Positions 1 through 7,201 of a DNA stretch of 45,801 nucleotides are shown piece by piece. The first letter of the stretch is position 1; each line of letters opens with the position of its first letter. Below the pieces are notes generated by a model. It was not told the DNA's origin. It saw only the letters and a program-made list of their open reading frames with translations, and did no database searches. This stretch comes from Methanoregula sp. (GTDB lineage: Archaea > Halobacteriota > Methanomicrobia > Methanomicrobiales > Methanospirillaceae), in contig NZ_PMZU01000028.1 of the NCBI RefSeq assembly GCF_003170075.1, positions 1-45,801 of the forward strand, given 5' to 3'. The translations under genes were made by a program, and so were the position numbers.

Positions 1-1233
1 GATACTACCAAGTACCTTATTCATATCAGCCTCACCGCAGAGGGGGTGGTCGAGAAACCTGATGTAGTCGGTGCCATTTTCGGGCAGACTGAAGGGTTAC
101 TCGGCGAAGACCTTGACCTGCGGGATCTCCAGAGAACCGGGCGGGTCGGCAGAATTGACGTCCAGATAGCAAGTAAGAAAGGAGAGACGACCGGAGAAAT
201 ACTGATCTCCACTTCCCTCGACCGGGCAGAGACGGCAATTCTTGCTGCATCGCTTGAGACAATTGACCGCGTGGGGCCCTGCGTCGCACACGTGGCAGTG
301 AACACGATCGAAGACATCCGGGTCAGCAAGCGGAAGAAGATTGTCGAGCGTGCAAAGGAGATCCTCATCGAACGATTCGATGACGGGACGATAGACAGTG
401 ACGAACTCCTTGACGATGTCCGCCAGACGATGCGGGTCGAGAAGGTCGGAACGATCGGGGACGAAAAACTGCCGGCCGGTCCCAACGTCCTTGAGTCGGA
501 TGCAATTATTATTGTCGAGGGCCGGGCGGATGTCATCAACCTCCTGCGGTACGGCATCAAGAACGCGGTGGCCGTGGAGGGCACCAACATCCCCAAATCA
601 ATCGTCGACCTCTGCGAGAAGAAAACCACAACCGCGTTCTTCGATGGCGACCGGGGCGGGGAACTGATCCTGCGGGAACTCCTGCAGGTGGCAGACCTCG
701 ATTACGTCGCATTCTCCCCCCGGGGAAAGAGCGTCGAGGATATGACCAAAAAAGAGGTCATCAAGACATTGAGAAACAAGGTGCCGGTCGAGTACGTCCG
801 CGACCAGTACTTCGAGGACGCAGCCGAGCTCCCGGCAGATCTGTCCCGGCCACCCCGTGCGGTACCGGCTCCCGGTGAAGGAAATCGCAGCGACATGGTC
901 GCCCGGTCCGGCACGGGACAGAAGAGAGCAAAAGAGAGCGTGCCCAAAGTCCCGGTGACAATCCGGGATCATATGGAGGACGTGAAAGGCAGGAATGTCG
1001 CCCGGTTCCTGAACGAGGACATGGCGGTAATCAGGGAGATCCGGTCAGAAGAGGTTGAGAAAGCAGTGGAAACACTGGATGCACCGGCGGCCGGCCTCGT
1101 AGTTGACCGCACCGTCGATCAGAAACTGCTCGACCGGCTGGTCTGGAAAGGGTTTGAATATGTCGCAGCAACAGATTTTAAGGGAATTATAAAAAGACCG
1201 TTAAACATCCGGTTGATGAAAATGAGCTCGTAA
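1..1233 (+). CDS. dnaG: DNA primase DnaG, archaeal type (5' end missing)
   Basis: Archaeal DnaG carries a bacterial-type TOPRIM domain; it makes short RNA primers in vitro and is also known as a component of the archaeal exosome. The reading frame is open from base 1 ([15 protein letters not shown]...), so the true start lies a few codons upstream of the window. The TOPRIM signature is visible: the EGRAD glutamate codon at 517-519 and the DGD pair (codons at 643 and 649). An N-terminal alpha-helical region precedes it and a charged linker (about 880-960) precedes the C-terminal domain. The stop is TAA at 1231-1233. The family call is secure; only the first residues are missing. Confidence 0.95.
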
Positions 1234-1296
1234 AACCGGGCTCACACAAATTTATTTATGCAAGTTGCACCCCATGTAACACTTTGGAGTGGCAAT

Positions 1297-1578
1297 ATGC
1301 ACAAGGAAGAACTTATCACCCTTCACAAGATACTCTACGAAATCAAGGACGATTTTGAAGAAGCCAACCCTGATCTGAAGTTTTCCCAGTATAATGCCCT
1401 GAAGATTACACCTTCCCAGTTGCACAAGAGCAAGCTCGAGCACAAGTATGCCATCTTCGTGCTCGGGAACGAAATTGCAAATGCGATGAAAGATGTCGAT
1501 TATACCTCATCATCACGGATCTCGGCACGTATGAAGGACCTGGCGGAAAAGACGCTCAAGGAAATGGAATACGCCTGA
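1297..1578 (+). CDS. UPF0058 family protein
   Basis: A 93-residue protein, MHKEELITLHKILYEIKDDFEE..., matching the small all-helical UPF0058 family of methanogens and haloarchaea. Its function is unknown. An in-frame ATG exists at 1258, but the start at 1297 is chosen because family members begin MHK(D/E)EL and because GGAGTGG (1286-1292) sits a suitable distance upstream as a ribosome site. It follows dnaG by 63 bp with its own A/T-rich stretch (about 1249-1260), so it may have its own promoter. A T-rich tract follows the stop. Confidence 0.85.
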   Translation: MHKEELITLHKILYEIKDDFEEANPDLKFSQYNALKITPSQLHKSKLEHKYAIFVLGNEIANAMKDVDYTSSSRISARMKDLAEKTLKEMEYA

Positions 1579-1598
1579 ATTTTTCTTTGCTTTTTTGA
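1579..1598 (+). terminator. T-rich terminator after UPF0058 gene
   Basis: The stop codon is followed by TTTTTC and GCTTTTTTG runs, typical of archaeal U-tract termination. No strong hairpin is visible. Confidence 0.5.
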
Positions 1599-1766
1599 CC
1601 GTTATTATTGTATAGTGATGGAGGATTCGTGGTTGAATCTATCTGCCGTACAGGCATCTGCTGCACCGGAAATGAACGAACTGCTCTTTTAGGGCGTAAA
1701 ATCTTTTGCGAGGGAATTCCCGCGCGAGAGCATAACGCTAAATCCGAGCAGGTGCATCAATCGTTC

Positions 1767-2702
1767 ATGCGCTACTTCCCTGATCCGGATCAGGGCGTCG
1801 ATATCGGCGACGTTAACCGGGCTGTCGAGGCTGCATTTGCCGATCACGCGAACGGTCTCGTGCAGATGCCGCCCAAAGTCTACATTACCCTTCCGACAGG
1901 GGATTTCCGGACGATGCCGGCGTACCTTCCCTCGCAAAGGATCGCCGGGGTGAAGATCGTCAACGTCCACCCGGACAACCCGAAGGCGGGGCTCCCGACC
2001 GTGATGGCGCTGACGGTCATTCTCGATACGGCAACCGGCATGCCGACTGCCATCCTGAACGCGACCCGGCTCACGGACATGCGGACAGGGGCAGCCGGGG
2101 CAGTCGCCGCAAAATACCTTGCACCAAAAAAGGAGTGCGTGCTCGGGGTCATCGGCACCGGCCGCCAGGCAGAAGCACAGGTACGGGCTACCGCGCGGGA
2201 ACTTTCCCTCACCAGGGTCCGGGTCTGGAGCCGGAATCCTGCCCATGCCGAAGCGATGGCCGCTCGGCTCGCACCCCTTGATGCAGAAAGTGTATCCATA
2301 GAGAGAGCATGCGACTGCGACGTGCTCGTCACAACGACGCCGTCCCGCGCTCCCATCGTTAAAAGCGAATGAATCCACGAGGGCACGCACATCAACGCAA
2401 TTGGCGCAGATGCCCCCGGAAAAGAAGAACTTGACCCGGCAATCCTGCACCGGGCGCGGGTCTTCGTGGACGATCCGGCGCAGGCATTTCACTCGGGGGA
2501 AATAAACGTGCCCATCAGCAAGGGACTCTACCAGCCATGGATGATCGCCGGCACGATTGGCGAGGTTGTGATCGGCAGACGAAAGCGTGAACACCCGGAT
2601 GAGATCACGGTCTTTGACTCCACCGGGCTTGCCATCCAGGATCTTGCGATCGCATCGATCGCAATACGACAGGCAACCGGCATGGAACTGCCATTTTTGT
2701 GA
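1767..2702 (+). pseudogene. Alanine dehydrogenase / ornithine cyclodeaminase family gene with in-frame TGA
   Basis: The family uses NAD(P) in a Rossmann fold to deaminate alanine or ornithine or to reduce ketimines. The first 201 residues (MRYFPDPDQGVDIGDVNRAV...) include the conserved LNATRLTDMRTGAAGAVAAKYLAP segment and the dinucleotide loop GVIGTGRQAEAQ. At 2370-2372 a TGA interrupts VKSE-*-IHEGTHINAIGADAPGKEELDP. The same frame then stays open to TGA at 2700-2702 and encodes the conserved C-terminus (GEINVPISKG, VFDSTGLAIQDLAIAS). Family members usually have Trp here (EW-I-EGTHINAIGADAPG), so TGG to TGA is the simplest explanation. The start is uncertain: ATG 1767 or in-frame GTG 1752. 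It could be a pseudogene, a sequence error, or a read-through gene. Confidence 0.85.
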
Positions 2703-2975
2703 GGATGGGATCTTTCCGCAAGTTCACGTATGGATATTATGTGACCACGGAATATCCGAATGTAGACAAAAGGGAGTCTGAAATCCGGCAGGATTCTAAC
2801 AAACGTGGATCCGCGTTCACCGCATGGGGAGGTGGGGGGTCGCATGCACACAAAAGGTACCCCCCATGGGGGTCTCCTGTAATCTGCGGGTGATCAGCCA
2901 ACCCCTCCCCACTTTGCCTCTCGGGGTACCCCACCCCCCGGTTCCGGAATGTCCGACGTGGGCTGCTGGAGTTTA

Positions 2976-3026
2976 GTTGGATGTACATCCAACAGTCACA
3001 TGTACATCCAACTATCAGATGTACAT
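2976..3026. repeat. Three ATGTACAT sites at 19-bp spacing, the first in an 18-bp perfect palindrome
   Basis: ATGTACAT occurs at 2981-2988, 3000-3007 and 3019-3026, each exactly 19 bp after the last. The first lies inside the perfect palindrome GTTGGATGTACATCCAAC (2976-2993). The second keeps only the right arm (ATGTACATCCAAC, 3000-3012) and the third only the core. This resembles a cooperative operator array or a short tandem repeat. No gene start lies just downstream on either strand, so its target is unclear. Confidence 0.75.
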
Positions 3027-3175
3027 GTTACTCGCGCTTTTCGTGGTTGCAAGCTGCGCGGTCTTCATGGGGGTACCCCTCCAAGGTATGTTTTACACTG
3101 CGTGAGATGTACTGCTGCGCTCGGTACAACACTGCCATGGCAGGCAGGAAATGAAACCGGTAAAATCGTATTAAC

Positions 3176-3204
3176 AAAAATACCCCTAAAAAAGATTTGA
3201 AAAA
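3176..3204 (-). terminator. Poly-T terminator of the radical SAM gene
   Basis: Read on the minus strand, the stop codon at 3205 is followed by three T-runs (TTTTT, TTTTTT, TTTTT) within about 30 nt, a typical archaeal U-tract terminator. Confidence 0.55.
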
Positions 3205-4671
3205 TTACTGTGTCTCTTTTTTCGCGTGTTTCTTCCAGATCTGTTCCCGGTAGACCGGGCCGCTGTTGTAGGTACAGAACGGGATAAGTTTGCCATCCGG
3301 CGTCGCATAGTGGATGCAGCACCGCTGGACACGCTCGATATCGTAGTTGTACCGGTCCATGAAATGCATCGTGCCGATGAAGAGCGCGTTCCAGTGGAAC
3401 TCCCGCAGCGCATCGAAATTCTGGCCAATCAGCGTCTTTCCGATCAGTTTCCAGAACTCGGCCGTACTCCCTTTCTCGCCTTTCTTGAACGATGCGTGGA
3501 GTTCTTTGACACCCTCAAGCAGTGTCGCATACTTGTTGATGGTGCCACCTTTCTTGAGCTTGTTTGACATCTGTTCAATCGCTGCAAAGAGACTCTCCAC
3601 ATCGACCATCCGGGTTACCGGTGTCATCCCGTCCTTGGTTACAAAGACATAGGTTGCCGCCCCGCAGTGCTCGTGAGCCGTAAAGCGCACCTGCGGCCGG
3701 CCGGTATAGGCCTCCACCAGATCAGAAAACGGCAGCACGCAGGGAACCGGGTAAAAGTCGCTCTTCTTTAAGATGCCATTGGTCTGGGTCTCGATATCCC
3801 CGATAAGTTCGGGGATCGTGATCCGTTCCTTCTCGAGATCCTCATCCTTTGCCGCACCGGTGAATGCCACGGGCTGGAAGTTTACGCCTCTCACAATTGA
3901 GATATGATCTGCGGCAAATTTCAGGATCTCTCCAACCTCCTGATTATTTTTCCCCTTGATGATTGTCGGCACGAGCACCACGCCAACCCCGGCCTTATTC
4001 AGATTCTCCAGCGCTTTTAAGTGGATTTTTAAATACGGGTTTGTCGCAGGAGTGACACCATCGAAATGGAGATAGACCGTTGAGAGGCCGGCATCCTTGA
4101 GCTGCTGGGCAAGGACCGGGTTGTTTGCCAGTTTCACACCGTTTGTTGCGATCTGGACCTGAGGAAATCCCAGTTCCTTTGCCTTTTTAACGATATCGAC
4201 AAGGTCGTCCCGCATGGTCGGCTCGCCACCGGAGAACTGCACGGCAGGTGTCGGCACGGGCTTCTCATTTCGGAGCATCTGCATCATACTGACAATCTCG
4301 TCAAAACTCGGTTCGTACACAAACCCGCAGGCACGGGCATTGGCAAAACAGAAACTGCAGTCGAGATTGCACCGGTTGGTCAGGTCAATATTTGCAAGGA
4401 GCGTTCCCGAATGGTGGTTGCTGCACAGGCCACACGCGGTAGGACAATTATCCGAGGTCACCGTGTTCTGGGGATTGCTCACGCCGCGACCGATTACATC
4501 GTAATGTTCGAACCGGTGGTACATTTTAGGATCGGACCAGTAGACGTGCCGGAACTTCCCGTGCTCCGGGCACGTTCTTGCGATCCAGATCTTCCCCTCT
4601 TCTTCTACGATATCCGCTTCCAGGACTGCCCCACAGACAGGGCAAAGGCTGCGTGTTTTTTTGATCAACAT
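3205..4671 (-). CDS. Radical SAM protein, tetraether lipid synthase (Tes/MJ0619) type
   Basis: A 488-residue radical SAM enzyme with the layout of the MJ0619 family. An N-terminal metal-binding region has CPVC (C10, C13) and C34. It is followed by C76/C80/C83, the radical SAM motif CNLDCSFC (C101, C105, C108), the SAM-binding FSGGEPT, and a long C-terminal domain with further cysteines. MJ0619-type enzymes join two archaeol chains through a carbon-carbon bond to make tetraether (GDGT) membrane lipids; older annotation calls them pterin methyltransferases. The call is strengthened by the neighbour carS, transcribed away from a shared upstream region and also a membrane-lipid gene. Start ATG 4671 has GGGTGGA upstream. 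Exact substrate cannot be read from sequence; paralogues of this family exist. Confidence 0.8.
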   Translation of the reverse strand: MLIKKTRSLCPVCGAVLEADIVEEEGKIWIARTCPEHGKFRHVYWSDPKMYHRFEHYDVIGRGVSNPQNTVTSDNCPTACGLCSNHHSGTLLANIDLTNRCNLDCSFCFANARACGFVYEPSFDEIVSMMQMLRNEKPVPTPAVQFSGGEPTMRDDLVDIVKKAKELGFPQVQIATNGVKLANNPVLAQQLKDAGLSTVYLHFDGVTPATNPYLKIHLKALENLNKAGVGVVLVPTIIKGKNNQEVGEILKFAADHISIVRGVNFQPVAFTGAAKDEDLEKERITIPELIGDIETQTNGILKKSDFYPVPCVLPFSDLVEAYTGRPQVRFTAHEHCGAATYVFVTKDGMTPVTRMVDVESLFAAIEQMSNKLKKGGTINKYATLLEGVKELHASFKKGEKGSTAEFWKLIGKTLIGQNFDALREFHWNALFIGTMHFMDRYNYDIERVQRCCIHYATPDGKLIPFCTYNSGPVYREQIWKKHAKKETQ

Positions 4672-4702
4672 ATTGTATCCACCCGATGCAGCAATGACAG
4701 GA

Positions 4703-4735
4703 ATTTTTTTTGGCTATTTTTTTTGGCTATTTTTA
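4703..4735. repeat. 13-bp tandem repeat in the tes/carS divergent promoter
   Basis: ATTTTTTTTGGCT is repeated perfectly at 4703-4715 and 4716-4728, followed by a partial third unit (ATTTTTA). It lies 32 to 64 bp upstream of the tes-like start and inside the region that must hold both promoters. T8 runs make copy number prone to slippage. Confidence 0.8.
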
Positions 4736-4815
4736 GTAACCTTAATCTTTTTATCTGCTCTTTATTAGAGATATTGGAGTGCAACATTATTAGTGCTGAG
4801 TCATTCATAATACCA

Positions 4816-5349
4816 TTGCTCTCGACACTGCTCGCCGCATTCTGGATCATGGTTCCTGCCTATGTCCCAAACCCCGTCGCTGCACTCTGCGGTGGCGGGA
4901 CACCGATAGACTTTAACAAAAACTATTCCGACGGCCGCAGGCTCCTTGGTGACGGCAAGACGTACCGGGGTCTCATATGCGGTGTGATTGCCGGCATCGC
5001 AGTTGGGGCATTGCAGATCTGGCTCGCCGGTACCTATGGCTGGACATTCCTGCCGCAGCACACGGCAGCCTCGATCGTCCTCCTCTCGCTCGGGGCACTC
5101 CTTGGGGACATGGGAAAGAGTTTTATAAAAAGGCGGCTTGGGAAAAACCGGGGAGATTCATGGCTGATCGCCGACCAGTATGACCTGGTTGCCGGTGCCT
5201 TTGCCCTGATGCTTGTCTTTGACCCCTCATGGCTCTTCTCAAACATTACGCTGCCCGTCCTCATTGTTATTCTTATCCTGACACCCATCCTCCACCGTAC
5301 GGTCAACATCATCGGGTATCTGTGCGGTGTCAAGAAGGAACCCTGGTGA
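4816..5349 (+). CDS. carS: CDP-archaeol synthase (CarS)
   Basis: Integral membrane enzyme that transfers CMP from CTP to digeranylgeranylglyceryl phosphate, giving the CDP-activated precursor of archaeal polar lipids. Family features are clear: VPAYVPNPVAALCGGGTPID at the N-terminus, DGRRLLGDGKTYRG, several hydrophobic helices, and GDMGKSFIKRRLGKNRGDSW in the second half, ending in a helix plus short polar tail. The start is uncertain. The helix before VPAYVPN is needed for the family length, and no ATG precedes it in frame, so I use TTG 4816; TTG 4774 and ATG 4849 are alternatives. It is followed after 6 bp by pyrE, suggesting co-transcription. Confidence 0.9.
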   Translation: MLSTLLAAFWIMVPAYVPNPVAALCGGGTPIDFNKNYSDGRRLLGDGKTYRGLICGVIAGIAVGALQIWLAGTYGWTFLPQHTAASIVLLSLGALLGDMGKSFIKRRLGKNRGDSWLIADQYDLVAGAFALMLVFDPSWLFSNITLPVLIVILILTPILHRTVNIIGYLCGVKKEPW

Positions 5350-5355
5350 ACACCC

Positions 5356-5859
5356 ATGAATGCACTCGCAGATCTTCTTATCAAGCACAAGGCCATCGAG
5401 TTCGGTGACTTTACCCTTGCTTCCGGCGCAAAGAGCCGGTACTATGTCGATGTGAAAACCGCGGTGACGCATCCTGAATTTCTTGCGGCGATAGCACAGG
5501 AGATAGTAAAAAGGTACGACTTTGATGTCGTGGCCGGGGTTGCCGTCGGGGGGGTGCCACTGGCGGTCGCAACGGCGCTTGCCGCTCAAAAACCCTTTGC
5601 AATCATACGGGCAGAAGAGAAAGACCATGGCAAGAAGTCGTTGATCATCGGAGATATAAATGGAAAGGATGTCCTCCTTGTTGAGGATGTCACCACGTCG
5701 GGTGGATCGGCCCTCTACGGGATTTCTACGCTGCGGAACGCGGGCGCACGGGCTGACCGTGTTGTCACAGTGGTCGACCGGGAGCAGGGCGCAGCGGCAA
5801 CATTAAAAAAGCAGGCCATCGATCTCTGCCCACTTGTCCGGGTCAGCGAGATTCTCTGA
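5356..5859 (+). CDS. pyrE: Orotate phosphoribosyltransferase
   Basis: Converts orotate and PRPP to OMP, the fifth step of UMP synthesis. The 167-residue length is normal for the archaeal form. The PRPP-binding signature is VLLVEDVTTSGGSA (residues 106-119); the phosphate/orotate loop KSRYYVDVK lies near residue 26; and VVAGVAVGGVPLA contacts pyrophosphate. GGTGA at 5346-5350, overlapping the carS stop, provides the ribosome site, so translation is probably coupled. UMP/CTP supply links logically to CarS, which consumes CTP. Confidence 0.95.
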   Translation: MNALADLLIKHKAIEFGDFTLASGAKSRYYVDVKTAVTHPEFLAAIAQEIVKRYDFDVVAGVAVGGVPLAVATALAAQKPFAIIRAEEKDHGKKSLIIGDINGKDVLLVEDVTTSGGSALYGISTLRNAGARADRVVTVVDREQGAAATLKKQAIDLCPLVRVSEIL

Positions 5860-5880
5860 CTCATACCCCCGAAGCGTAAA

Positions 5881-5890
5881 CCATTTTTAA
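5881..5890 (+). promoter_or_regulatory. TATA box of purD-argF
   Basis: CATTTTTAA (5882-5890) is centred about 26 bp before the ATG at 5912, so the transcript should start at or within a few bases of the purD start codon. Confidence 0.5.
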
Positions 5891-5911
5891 CAACAAGAAC
5901 CCATGTGATGG

Positions 5912-7201
5912 ATGATGAAGATCCTCGTTGTTGGTGGCGGAGGACGGGAACATGCCATAGCATCTGCGCTCTCCCGAAACAGCGAGACTGAAATCTATTC
6001 CGTAATGGCAAGGAAGAACCCTGGTATTGCCCGGATCGCAAAGAAGATCTGCCTCACAAAAGAGACGGATCTCGCCCGGATCGTGGCGTTTTCCAGAGAG
6101 ACCGGGGTCACCCATGCGTTCATCGGCCCCGAAGCCCCGCTTGAGGCCGGCGTGGTTGACCGGCTTTCCGCGGCGGGGGTGGCGTGCGTCGGCCCGACAA
6201 AAGCGGCGGCACGTATCGAAACCGACAAGGCGTTCTGCCGGGACTTAATGACGCACCATCATATCAGCGGCAACCCGGCCTACCGGGTCTTCCACAATGC
6301 GGCTGATGCTATCGCGTTTGTGAAGGACCATAACAGGGATCTGGCGATCAAGCCCATCGGCCTCACCGGGGGGAAAGGTGTCCGGATCATGGGAGAGCAG
6401 GTGGATCTTGCCGGTGCCATCGACTACATTCAACAGATCAAGGGGGAAGTTGTTCTCGAAGAACGACTCAAAGGCGAGGAGTTTACTCTTCAGGCATTTG
6501 TCGACGGGTCTCATATCATCCCCATGCCGCTCGTGCAGGATCACAAAAGGGCCTTTGACGGAGACACCGGGCCCAACACCGGGGGAATGGGGTCGTACAC
6601 GATGCCGGATCATATGCTCCCCTTTGTGAGCAGGAAGGATTACACCGCCGCCCTCTCCATCATGGCCGAGGTCATCACCGCGATGGCAAAAGACGGGTAT
6701 CCCTACAAGGGTGTCCTGTACGGCCAGTTCATGAATACGTCAGAAGGACCCAAGGTAATAGAGTTCAACGCCCGGTTCGGGGATCCTGAAGCAATGAATG
6801 TGCTCACGCTTCTCTCCTCAGATCTCTGCGATGCGGTCACCGGGGTCACGGACGGAACGCTCTCCGCATCGAAAGTCACCTTTGAGCACGCGGCAACGGT
6901 CTGTAAGTACCTTGTGCCCGAGGGCTATCCTGCTGCCCCAAAGGTCGGAAGACCACTTAACCTGGGGGAGACCGGCGGCGCTATCCTCTATTATGCAAAC
7001 GTAGAAGTTCGGGACGGCAGGCTTTTTACGCTCACGTCCCGGACGCTCGCGTTTGTGGGGAAGGCGGGTACCCTTGCCACGGCAGAACGCATCGCGGAGC
7101 AGGCGGCTTCGGCCGTGCAGGGAAGCGTCCACCACCGCCGCGATATCGGGACACAGGCGCTGCTCGACCGGCGGATCGCTCATATGAAGGAGCTGCAATG
7201 A
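5912..7201 (+). CDS. purD: Phosphoribosylamine-glycine ligase
   Basis: ATP-grasp enzyme that joins glycine to phosphoribosylamine (second step of IMP synthesis). The 429-residue protein has the N-terminal [16 protein letters not shown] loop, the ATP-grasp core with [11 protein letters not shown] and [14 protein letters not shown], the signature [14 protein letters not shown], and the metal site [12 protein letters not shown]. Two ATGs are adjacent (5912, 5915); I take the first, and a TATA box about 26 bp upstream fits a near-leaderless message. Its stop overlaps the argF start (ATGA), so the two are one operon. Confidence 0.95.

Follow-up and report, generated by a model that had tools for sequence, protein, structure and literature searches.

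Regulators of the Csa3 family have been described from Sulfolobus, where Csa3a recognises imperfect palindromes within the promoters of csa1 and cas1 (PMC4333418). The sites known for the family lie, in the accessible parts of the reports, in the promoters of csa1, cas1 and cas4a (PMC4333418, PMC8844856), and Csa3 of S. solfataricus is a further described member (PMC8844856). In Methanosarcina mazei, the CARF-winged-helix-turn-helix (wHTH) protein MM_0565 binds a conserved region of the CRISPR leader and activates the cas1-solo of a casposon; no distinct binding motif was identified for it in the available part of the report (PMC7465815). For the dispersed palindromes known as REPINs and their RAYT partner genes, co-evolution of partner and repeat has been proposed (PMC3116915). 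The open-licence PMC literature, outside which most subscription papers lie, yielded no description of the element reported below.

The window, that is, the whole stretch of DNA analysed, comprised the 45,801 nt of contig NZ_PMZU01000028.1 from a Methanoregula sp. (genome G000; 1.92 Mb, 96.8% complete). An earlier reading based on the sequence only had pointed to three ATGTACAT sites at nt 2981, 3000 and 3019, spaced at exactly 19 bp, with the first inside a perfect 18-bp palindrome. Pattern search bore out both statements: these were the sole occurrences of ATGTACAT in the window, and the palindrome, GTTGGATGTACATCCAAC, occupied nt 2976–2993. Shuffled windows contained on average 0.37 matches versus the 3 real ones, and 1 of 100 shuffles reached 3 with spacing ignored. 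A genome search for spaced pairs, which that reading had proposed, returned the window place only, two ATGTACAT located 8–14 bases apart being present at a single place in the genome and the reversed pattern of pairs at none. The exact 18-mer of site 1 had no match in the genome-contig collection, from which records close to its own genome are possibly absent. The real unit exceeded that of the sequence-only reading, for three adjoining 18-bp sites, joined by 1-bp linkers at a period of exactly 19 bp, formed a natural unit of 56 bp (nt 2976–3031) within an element spanning nt 2848–3043. The features are listed below, R1 being a sequence model built from five aligned copies of the element.

Nt 2848–3043, plus strand: whole dispersed element, window copy (R1 match, E 7.7e-40, with the window copy included in building R1)
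Nt 2856–2874, no strand: GC-rich palindrome GGTACCCCCCATGGGGGTC, left end of the element
Nt 2923–2932, no strand: GGGGTACCCC palindrome, second copy at nt 3070–3079
Nt 2952–2961, plus strand: TCCGACGTGG, a TCCGNCGTGA-like motif ending 14 bp before the array
Nt 2976–2993, no strand: array site 1, perfect palindrome (9/9 pairs), half-sites ATCCAAC and ATCCAAC
Nt 2995–3012, no strand: array site 2, imperfect palindrome (6/9 pairs), half-sites ATGTGAC and ATCCAAC
Nt 3014–3031, no strand: array site 3, imperfect palindrome (6/9 pairs), half-sites ATCTGAT and ATGTTAC
Nt 3032–3070, minus strand: possible, weak relic of the 3′ end of a Csa3-like gene, from alignment versus shuffles

A sequence-blind score, which measured the likeness among the six outward half-sites of three 18-bp sites at 19 bp and ignored the letters themselves, was 72 at nt 2976; the next unrelated window position scored 53, and the maximum over 1,829,840 Markov-shuffled positions was 60. 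In group 1, the group of element copies that includes the window copy, 27 of 29 arrays scored 67 to 92, and those of G027 and G009 scored under the null of the detector. Within the genus, the three-site, 19-bp geometry recurred with half-sites that were quite different. A remnant of a tandem repeat, as had been suggested, thus found no support, the same geometry occurring at unrelated places with different sequences.

The exact ATGTACAT pattern, always in threes, was found in three further genus genomes (4 of 39, counting its own), and alignment of the five exact-pattern copies revealed a common element of about 200 bp with the order GC-rich palindromes, TCCGNCGTGA-like motif, 14 bp, and array. 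R1 matched in 22 of the 39 genus genomes (E ≤ 0.01), some matches being to GC repeats only, and 30 copies reaching the array were picked by hand from its table, hairpin-only and reverse-strand rows being excluded. With the window copy left out, an HMM based on 12 others located nt 2862–3041 (E 6.9e-27). The motif lay 14 bp from the array in most group-1 copies and 16 bp in G060b and G013. GC-rich repeats of the GGTACCCCCCATGGGGGTC type showed no specificity for the element and were widespread across the genus, and the GC hairpins were rejected as its core because they recur without arrays in several genus genomes. For the possible relic at nt 3032–3070, the best alignment was that with G034a, equalled by 24 of 1000 shuffles, while for the other four references 138 to 577 of 1000 shuffles were as good.

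Two side observations concern these parts. Clusters of GC-rich GGGGTACCCC-type palindromes were intergenic in several genus genomes (L141–L145 and L149 in G034 and G021; nt 2923–2932 and 3070–3079 in the window), some carried a TCCGTCGTGA-like motif with no array seen, and they are possibly a repeat family of their own. The polarity of the array-side motif was opposite between groups, TCCGGCGTGA in group 1 and TCACGCCGGA in group 2 (L230–L269), at a similar distance.

Twelve of the 30 copies adjoined or overlapped the 3′ end of a gene encoding a protein of about 283 aa, the element edge being at most 20 bp from the gene end in 11 of the 12 and, by its coordinates, 6 bp in the twelfth, G019. 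Since these 12 group-1 genes were selected by presence of the element, the only unbiased count is that of the nine best regulator matches in the 39 genus genomes (E 2.6e-57 or better), all nine of which had a group-1 element at the 3′ end. The three other linked genes (G060, G009 and G019) were partial or broken and ranked among homologues lacking a group-1 element. The regulator consists of a CARF domain and a C-terminal winged helix, and the PADLOC Csa3 profile covered nearly the whole length of all 12 CARF proteins scanned (E 4.2e-26 to 5.4e-54; 1.8e-40 for the G034 protein). The G034 protein also matched PadR weakly, below the PadR cut-off, and a second CARF protein of L047 matched the Csa3 profile and had no strong array. 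A single-sequence AlphaFold2 model of the Csa3-like protein had a pLDDT of 35. Search of solved structures with the single protein gave no match, and the matches of a profile, none better than E 0.018, were mostly wHTH proteins of the PadR/MarR kind. In named records, loci of the protein were found in two Methanomicrobiales MAGs. Four array-side Csa3-like genes were broken by stops or split matches (G032:C67, G008:C150, G009:C247 and G019:C97); the arrays beside them scored 73–79 in three cases and 49 in G009.

Linkage extended beyond group 1. An HMM built from 28 solo copies matched downstream of 25 of 49 other homologues (E < 1e-18), in a single orientation, and upstream, up to 600 bp, of none of the 49. 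The set leaves out rows that split a single gene, together with L181, L189 and L190, where the gene was partial or the contig ended. The L134 match, one of the 25, covered the flank only, with the array outside the match. No strong downstream match was present for the other 24. The downstream match of L136 was weak (3e-9), L178 had an array by the sequence-blind detector with no HMM match, and L183 offered less than 60 bp of downstream sequence to search. The sequence-blind detector scored at least 60 downstream of 9 of the 49; upstream, its maximum was 49 at the 19-bp period and 59 (L173) with the period left free (17–23). Half-sites of these arrays were ATCCAAC, ATCCGTG, ATCCGAT and TACAGTT-like, with three sites and the 19-bp period kept. 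On rereading of ten loci, the array was found 9–77 bp past the predicted stop in nine and 205 bp past it in L194, of which the predicted ORF was short.

The letters of the half-sites were then compared with the parts of the protein. In group 1 (n = 9), the array correlated with the recognition helix (r 0.74, partial 0.71, p 0.0004) and far less with the CARF domain (r 0.33, partial 0.14, p 0.20). In group 2 (n = 8), the partial values were 0.12 for the helix (p 0.27) and 0.76 for the CARF domain (p 0.02), the two being inseparable there. Over all 17, both tracked the array (partial helix 0.24, p 0.017; partial CARF 0.39, p 0.004), the CARF domain at least as well as the helix, and with inner half-sites only the helix value was 0.18 (p 0.055). 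The claim of co-evolution therefore rests on group 1, the group of the window copy, in which, on these correlations, the half-sites co-vary with the recognition helix and not with the CARF domain. Helices of the type NILRTM paired with half-sites ATGCTAC/ATGTGAT/ATGTTAC; SFLNTL, SILNTL and SLLITL with ATTTGAT/ATCTGAT; TFIWTL and TLLHSL with ATCCAAC; and DFMRAL with ATCCGTG. This code was not one-to-one, as G008b (NFLSAL) has the N of the ATGCTAC/ATGTGAT group, yet mostly ATCCAAC.

As the elements often lie just behind the regulator genes and their letters, in group 1, co-vary with the DNA-reading part of the protein, the array family most likely represents landing sites of the Csa3-like protein, spread round the genome. 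The array in the window is probably a DNA operator of a Csa3-like CARF-winged-helix protein, contained in a dispersed intergenic element of about 200 bp. Three Csa3-like dimers would be seated side by side on the 18-bp palindromes at the 19-bp period; the dimers would nearly touch, which suggests cooperative binding, and a CARF ligand may control occupancy of the array, as proposed for Csa3. The element, often just behind the gene of its own regulator, would have spread as solo copies in Methanoregula-like genomes. In the sequence-only reading, the sites had been taken as a cooperative protein-binding array. A protein array remains the best-supported reading, given the geometry, the shared half-sites and the helix co-variation, whereas binding and cooperativity are what we infer from these comparisons.

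That reading had also allowed for an unannotated RNA, and the form considered here was a structured RNA with three hairpins in a 3′ UTR or a small RNA in place of a DNA site, examined by Rfam, fold and covariation. Nt 2700–3204 folded better than shuffles (z -4.15), 77.6% of the hairpin cells were paired with a covariation score of 0.354 versus 0.163 when shuffled, and the element is often behind a gene 3′ end. However, the folded stretch contains GC repeats common in the genus, a row of symmetric protein half-sites yields similar pair counts, sites 2 and 3 of the window pair at only 6/9, and a search of nt 1–6000 against Rfam gave no matches up to E 1. The comparison of arms served to separate the two: in 29 of 31 arrays (G008c, which lacks a site, and G014 being dropped), arms of the same site were identical at 4.91 of 7 positions versus 5.18 for arms of different sites in the same array. 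Arms of the same site are thus no better matched than arms across sites, as expected for repeated protein half-sites and not for hairpins, and the RNA, unsupported also by Rfam, was set aside as highly improbable.

For the distribution of the putative operator, R2, an array model from 34 arrays, was used. It found arrays in 25 of the 39 genus genomes (E ≤ 0.1), with at least 14 places in G005 and at least 10 in G032, and none in the other 14. Across the order, under stricter filters, 22 of 232 genomes matched at E ≤ 1e-4, 21 of them in the same genus and the remaining one in a different genus of the family. Genome G010 has an array and gave no match to the Csa3-like protein. At forty further array places, the nearest predicted gene was Csa3-like in no case, and the neighbours were oriented ++ in 13, -- in 11, +- in 10, -+ in 2 and +? 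in 4; the flanks were alike at most of 37 array places, among the matches listed. More than one half-site class was present within a single genome. In a distance test counting 22 linked arrays and omitting 11 solo arrays of shifted spacing, 42 solo arrays, all in genomes with a counted linked array, lay at a mean distance of 1.71 from the closest such array in their own genome, compared to 2.20 with shuffled labels (3 of 2000 label shuffles as low). By the same test, 19 of the 42 were at a distance of at least 2.25 from all linked arrays counted in their own genome, a number that overstates the orphans because of these omissions. Two tandem elements about 40 bp apart, with differing half-site classes, were observed in L090 (nt 2811–3200, G032).

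The position of the array between convergent genes had been regarded as unusual, a view that the gap counts do not support. Among 59 gaps of at least 250 bp with an array, 34 were tandem, 23 convergent and 2 divergent, versus 30, 9 and 20 among 59 such gaps without one (Fisher, p 2e-5 for divergent and 0.007 for convergent), though these counts are not independent, since gene-linked, solo and some orthologous copies are mixed. The genes were those of our own hexamer predictor, which missed the broken gene to the left of the window array and so mis-typed the gap of the window. With 23 of 59 gaps convergent, such placement is therefore usual for the element family. In tandem gaps, the array was nearer to the end of the upstream gene than to the next start in only 21 of 34, so an effect on the next promoter may occur.

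Chromosome-organising and nucleoid-occlusion sites include parS, matS and the SlmA sites, and a function of this kind, with the wHTH proteins bound at dispersed places, would suit the rarity of divergent gaps and the copies spread, among the matches listed, along the single-contig genomes G062, G017 and G020. It is nevertheless unlikely, since the occurrence is patchy (22 of 232 order genomes at E ≤ 1e-4, 21 in one genus; 14 of 39 genus genomes without a match at E ≤ 0.1), several half-site classes coexist in one genome, and the Csa3-like protein was not found in the genome of the window.

In the window, the array is located in a gap of 502 bp (nt 2703–3204). To its left is the gene at nt 1767–2702, which we take from its translation to be ornithine-cyclodeaminase (OCD)-like, and to its right a minus-strand gene (nt 3205–4671) matching tetraether lipid synthase Tes (NCBIfam NF045702, E 6.5e-224); presumably, again from its translation, the window also contains a DnaG-like gene. 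The OCD-like gene has an in-frame TGA at nt 2370–2372, after which the frame is open to nt 2702, reflecting either a nonsense change or a sequencing error. Relatives carry the OCD-like gene at the same place, with the order OCD-like gene–Tes kept. In 11 of 16 comparable relatives, the interval was 33–107 bp (G010, 76 bp; G032, 107 bp), and in the other five it was about 330 to 1100 bp with different content. None of the 16 relatives having both genes carried an array scoring at least 66 at this locus; thus, the array appears to have been gained in this lineage or lost in the others. Absence from all relatives, together with the lack of a transcript or binding signal, had been named beforehand as favouring a chance repeat; no array was detected at this locus in the 16 relatives, but arrays occur elsewhere in the genus.

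The nearest of the group-1 arrays compared was that of G008b (47 of 56 positions identical), whose linked Csa3-like gene contains a stop. In the 96.8% complete genome of the window, a Csa3-like gene was not found by a single-protein search, nor by a profile of 14 sequences run without a positive control. The window array is a solo copy and, because no such gene was found, most likely an orphaned operator, which probably has little effect on the neighbouring genes.

The manner of spreading bears on a further explanation, which is compatible with an operator because the bound protein could be part of the mobile unit: non-autonomous mobile DNA (MITE/REPIN-like), with the palindromes serving mobility in trans. 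This is possible, though we hold it only tentatively. The element was present or absent at the same locus between genomes, solo copies occurred along with two tandem copies in G032, and the solo copies G005b, G034d and G032c retained about 40–90 bp matching the 3′ end of the gene. Against mobility, the linked gene is by profile a regulator and not a transposase, no transposase was seen, and the array letters follow the recognition helix in group 1. In one close pair, G017 with the array and G020 without it, the flanks were 92% and 83% identical and the difference, 644 bp (L247, nt 2170–2813), exceeded the element; neither a clear target-site duplication nor a clear terminal repeat was detected at this one pair. 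Parts of the two ends of the 644-bp piece recur close together in G020 (nt 485216–485531) with the middle absent, and hence the G017 array may sit inside another mobile piece. Among the relatives of G000, the gap was too diverged for the element ends to be placed.

Foreign origins were also considered. The Csa3-like protein of G034 had no match in plasmids and no relative among viral contigs, in a search that reaches close relatives only, and its element DNA had no match in phages; viral contigs scanned for the exact patterns yielded two loci, neither of which had an element. On these searches, a plasmid or phage origin was rejected.

With an operator of the Csa3-like protein as the preferred reading, the results suggest a readable protein–DNA code in a family of CRISPR-associated regulators found in methanogens; for the methanogen member MM_0565, the accessible part of the report identified no distinct binding motif (PMC7465815). 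The element would also constitute a candidate operator multiplied away from its own regulator gene, and since helices and half-sites occur in natural pairs, gel shifts could test the code directly. More speculatively, and with rather low confidence, the system might be an archaeal REPIN-like partnership, in which signal-sensing Csa3-like paralogues keep a three-dimer operator behind their gene, solo copies act as binding hubs mostly off divergent promoters, and the half-site code has diversified via the recognition helix. If so, cyclic-nucleotide signals arising in infection would load or unload many sites together.

CRISPR arrays are composed of identical repeats and unique spacers of similar length, from which the present arrays differ in their 18-bp sites and 1-bp linkers, three sites per array in the 29 analysed. 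Likeness to Csa3, as represented by Sulfolobus Csa3a, lies in the protein family, as judged by the PADLOC profile, and in palindromic sites, here putative, for a wHTH regulator; unlike the promoter sites in the accessible parts of those reports, the sites here are three at a 19-bp period, located past the end of the regulator gene or at solo positions (PMC4333418, PMC8844856). MM_0565 is likewise a CARF-wHTH protein of a methanogen, whereas the linked array found here has no counterpart in the available part of its description (PMC7465815). The nearest known case of a dispersed palindrome with a partner gene, as far as the source is accessible, is REPIN/RAYT (PMC3116915), with which the present element shares dispersed extragenic palindromes and a copy beside the partner gene. 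It differs in that the partner is by profile a CARF-wHTH protein and not a RAYT tyrosine transposase, and in that the unit consists of three adjoining 18-bp sites with no mobility mechanism seen.
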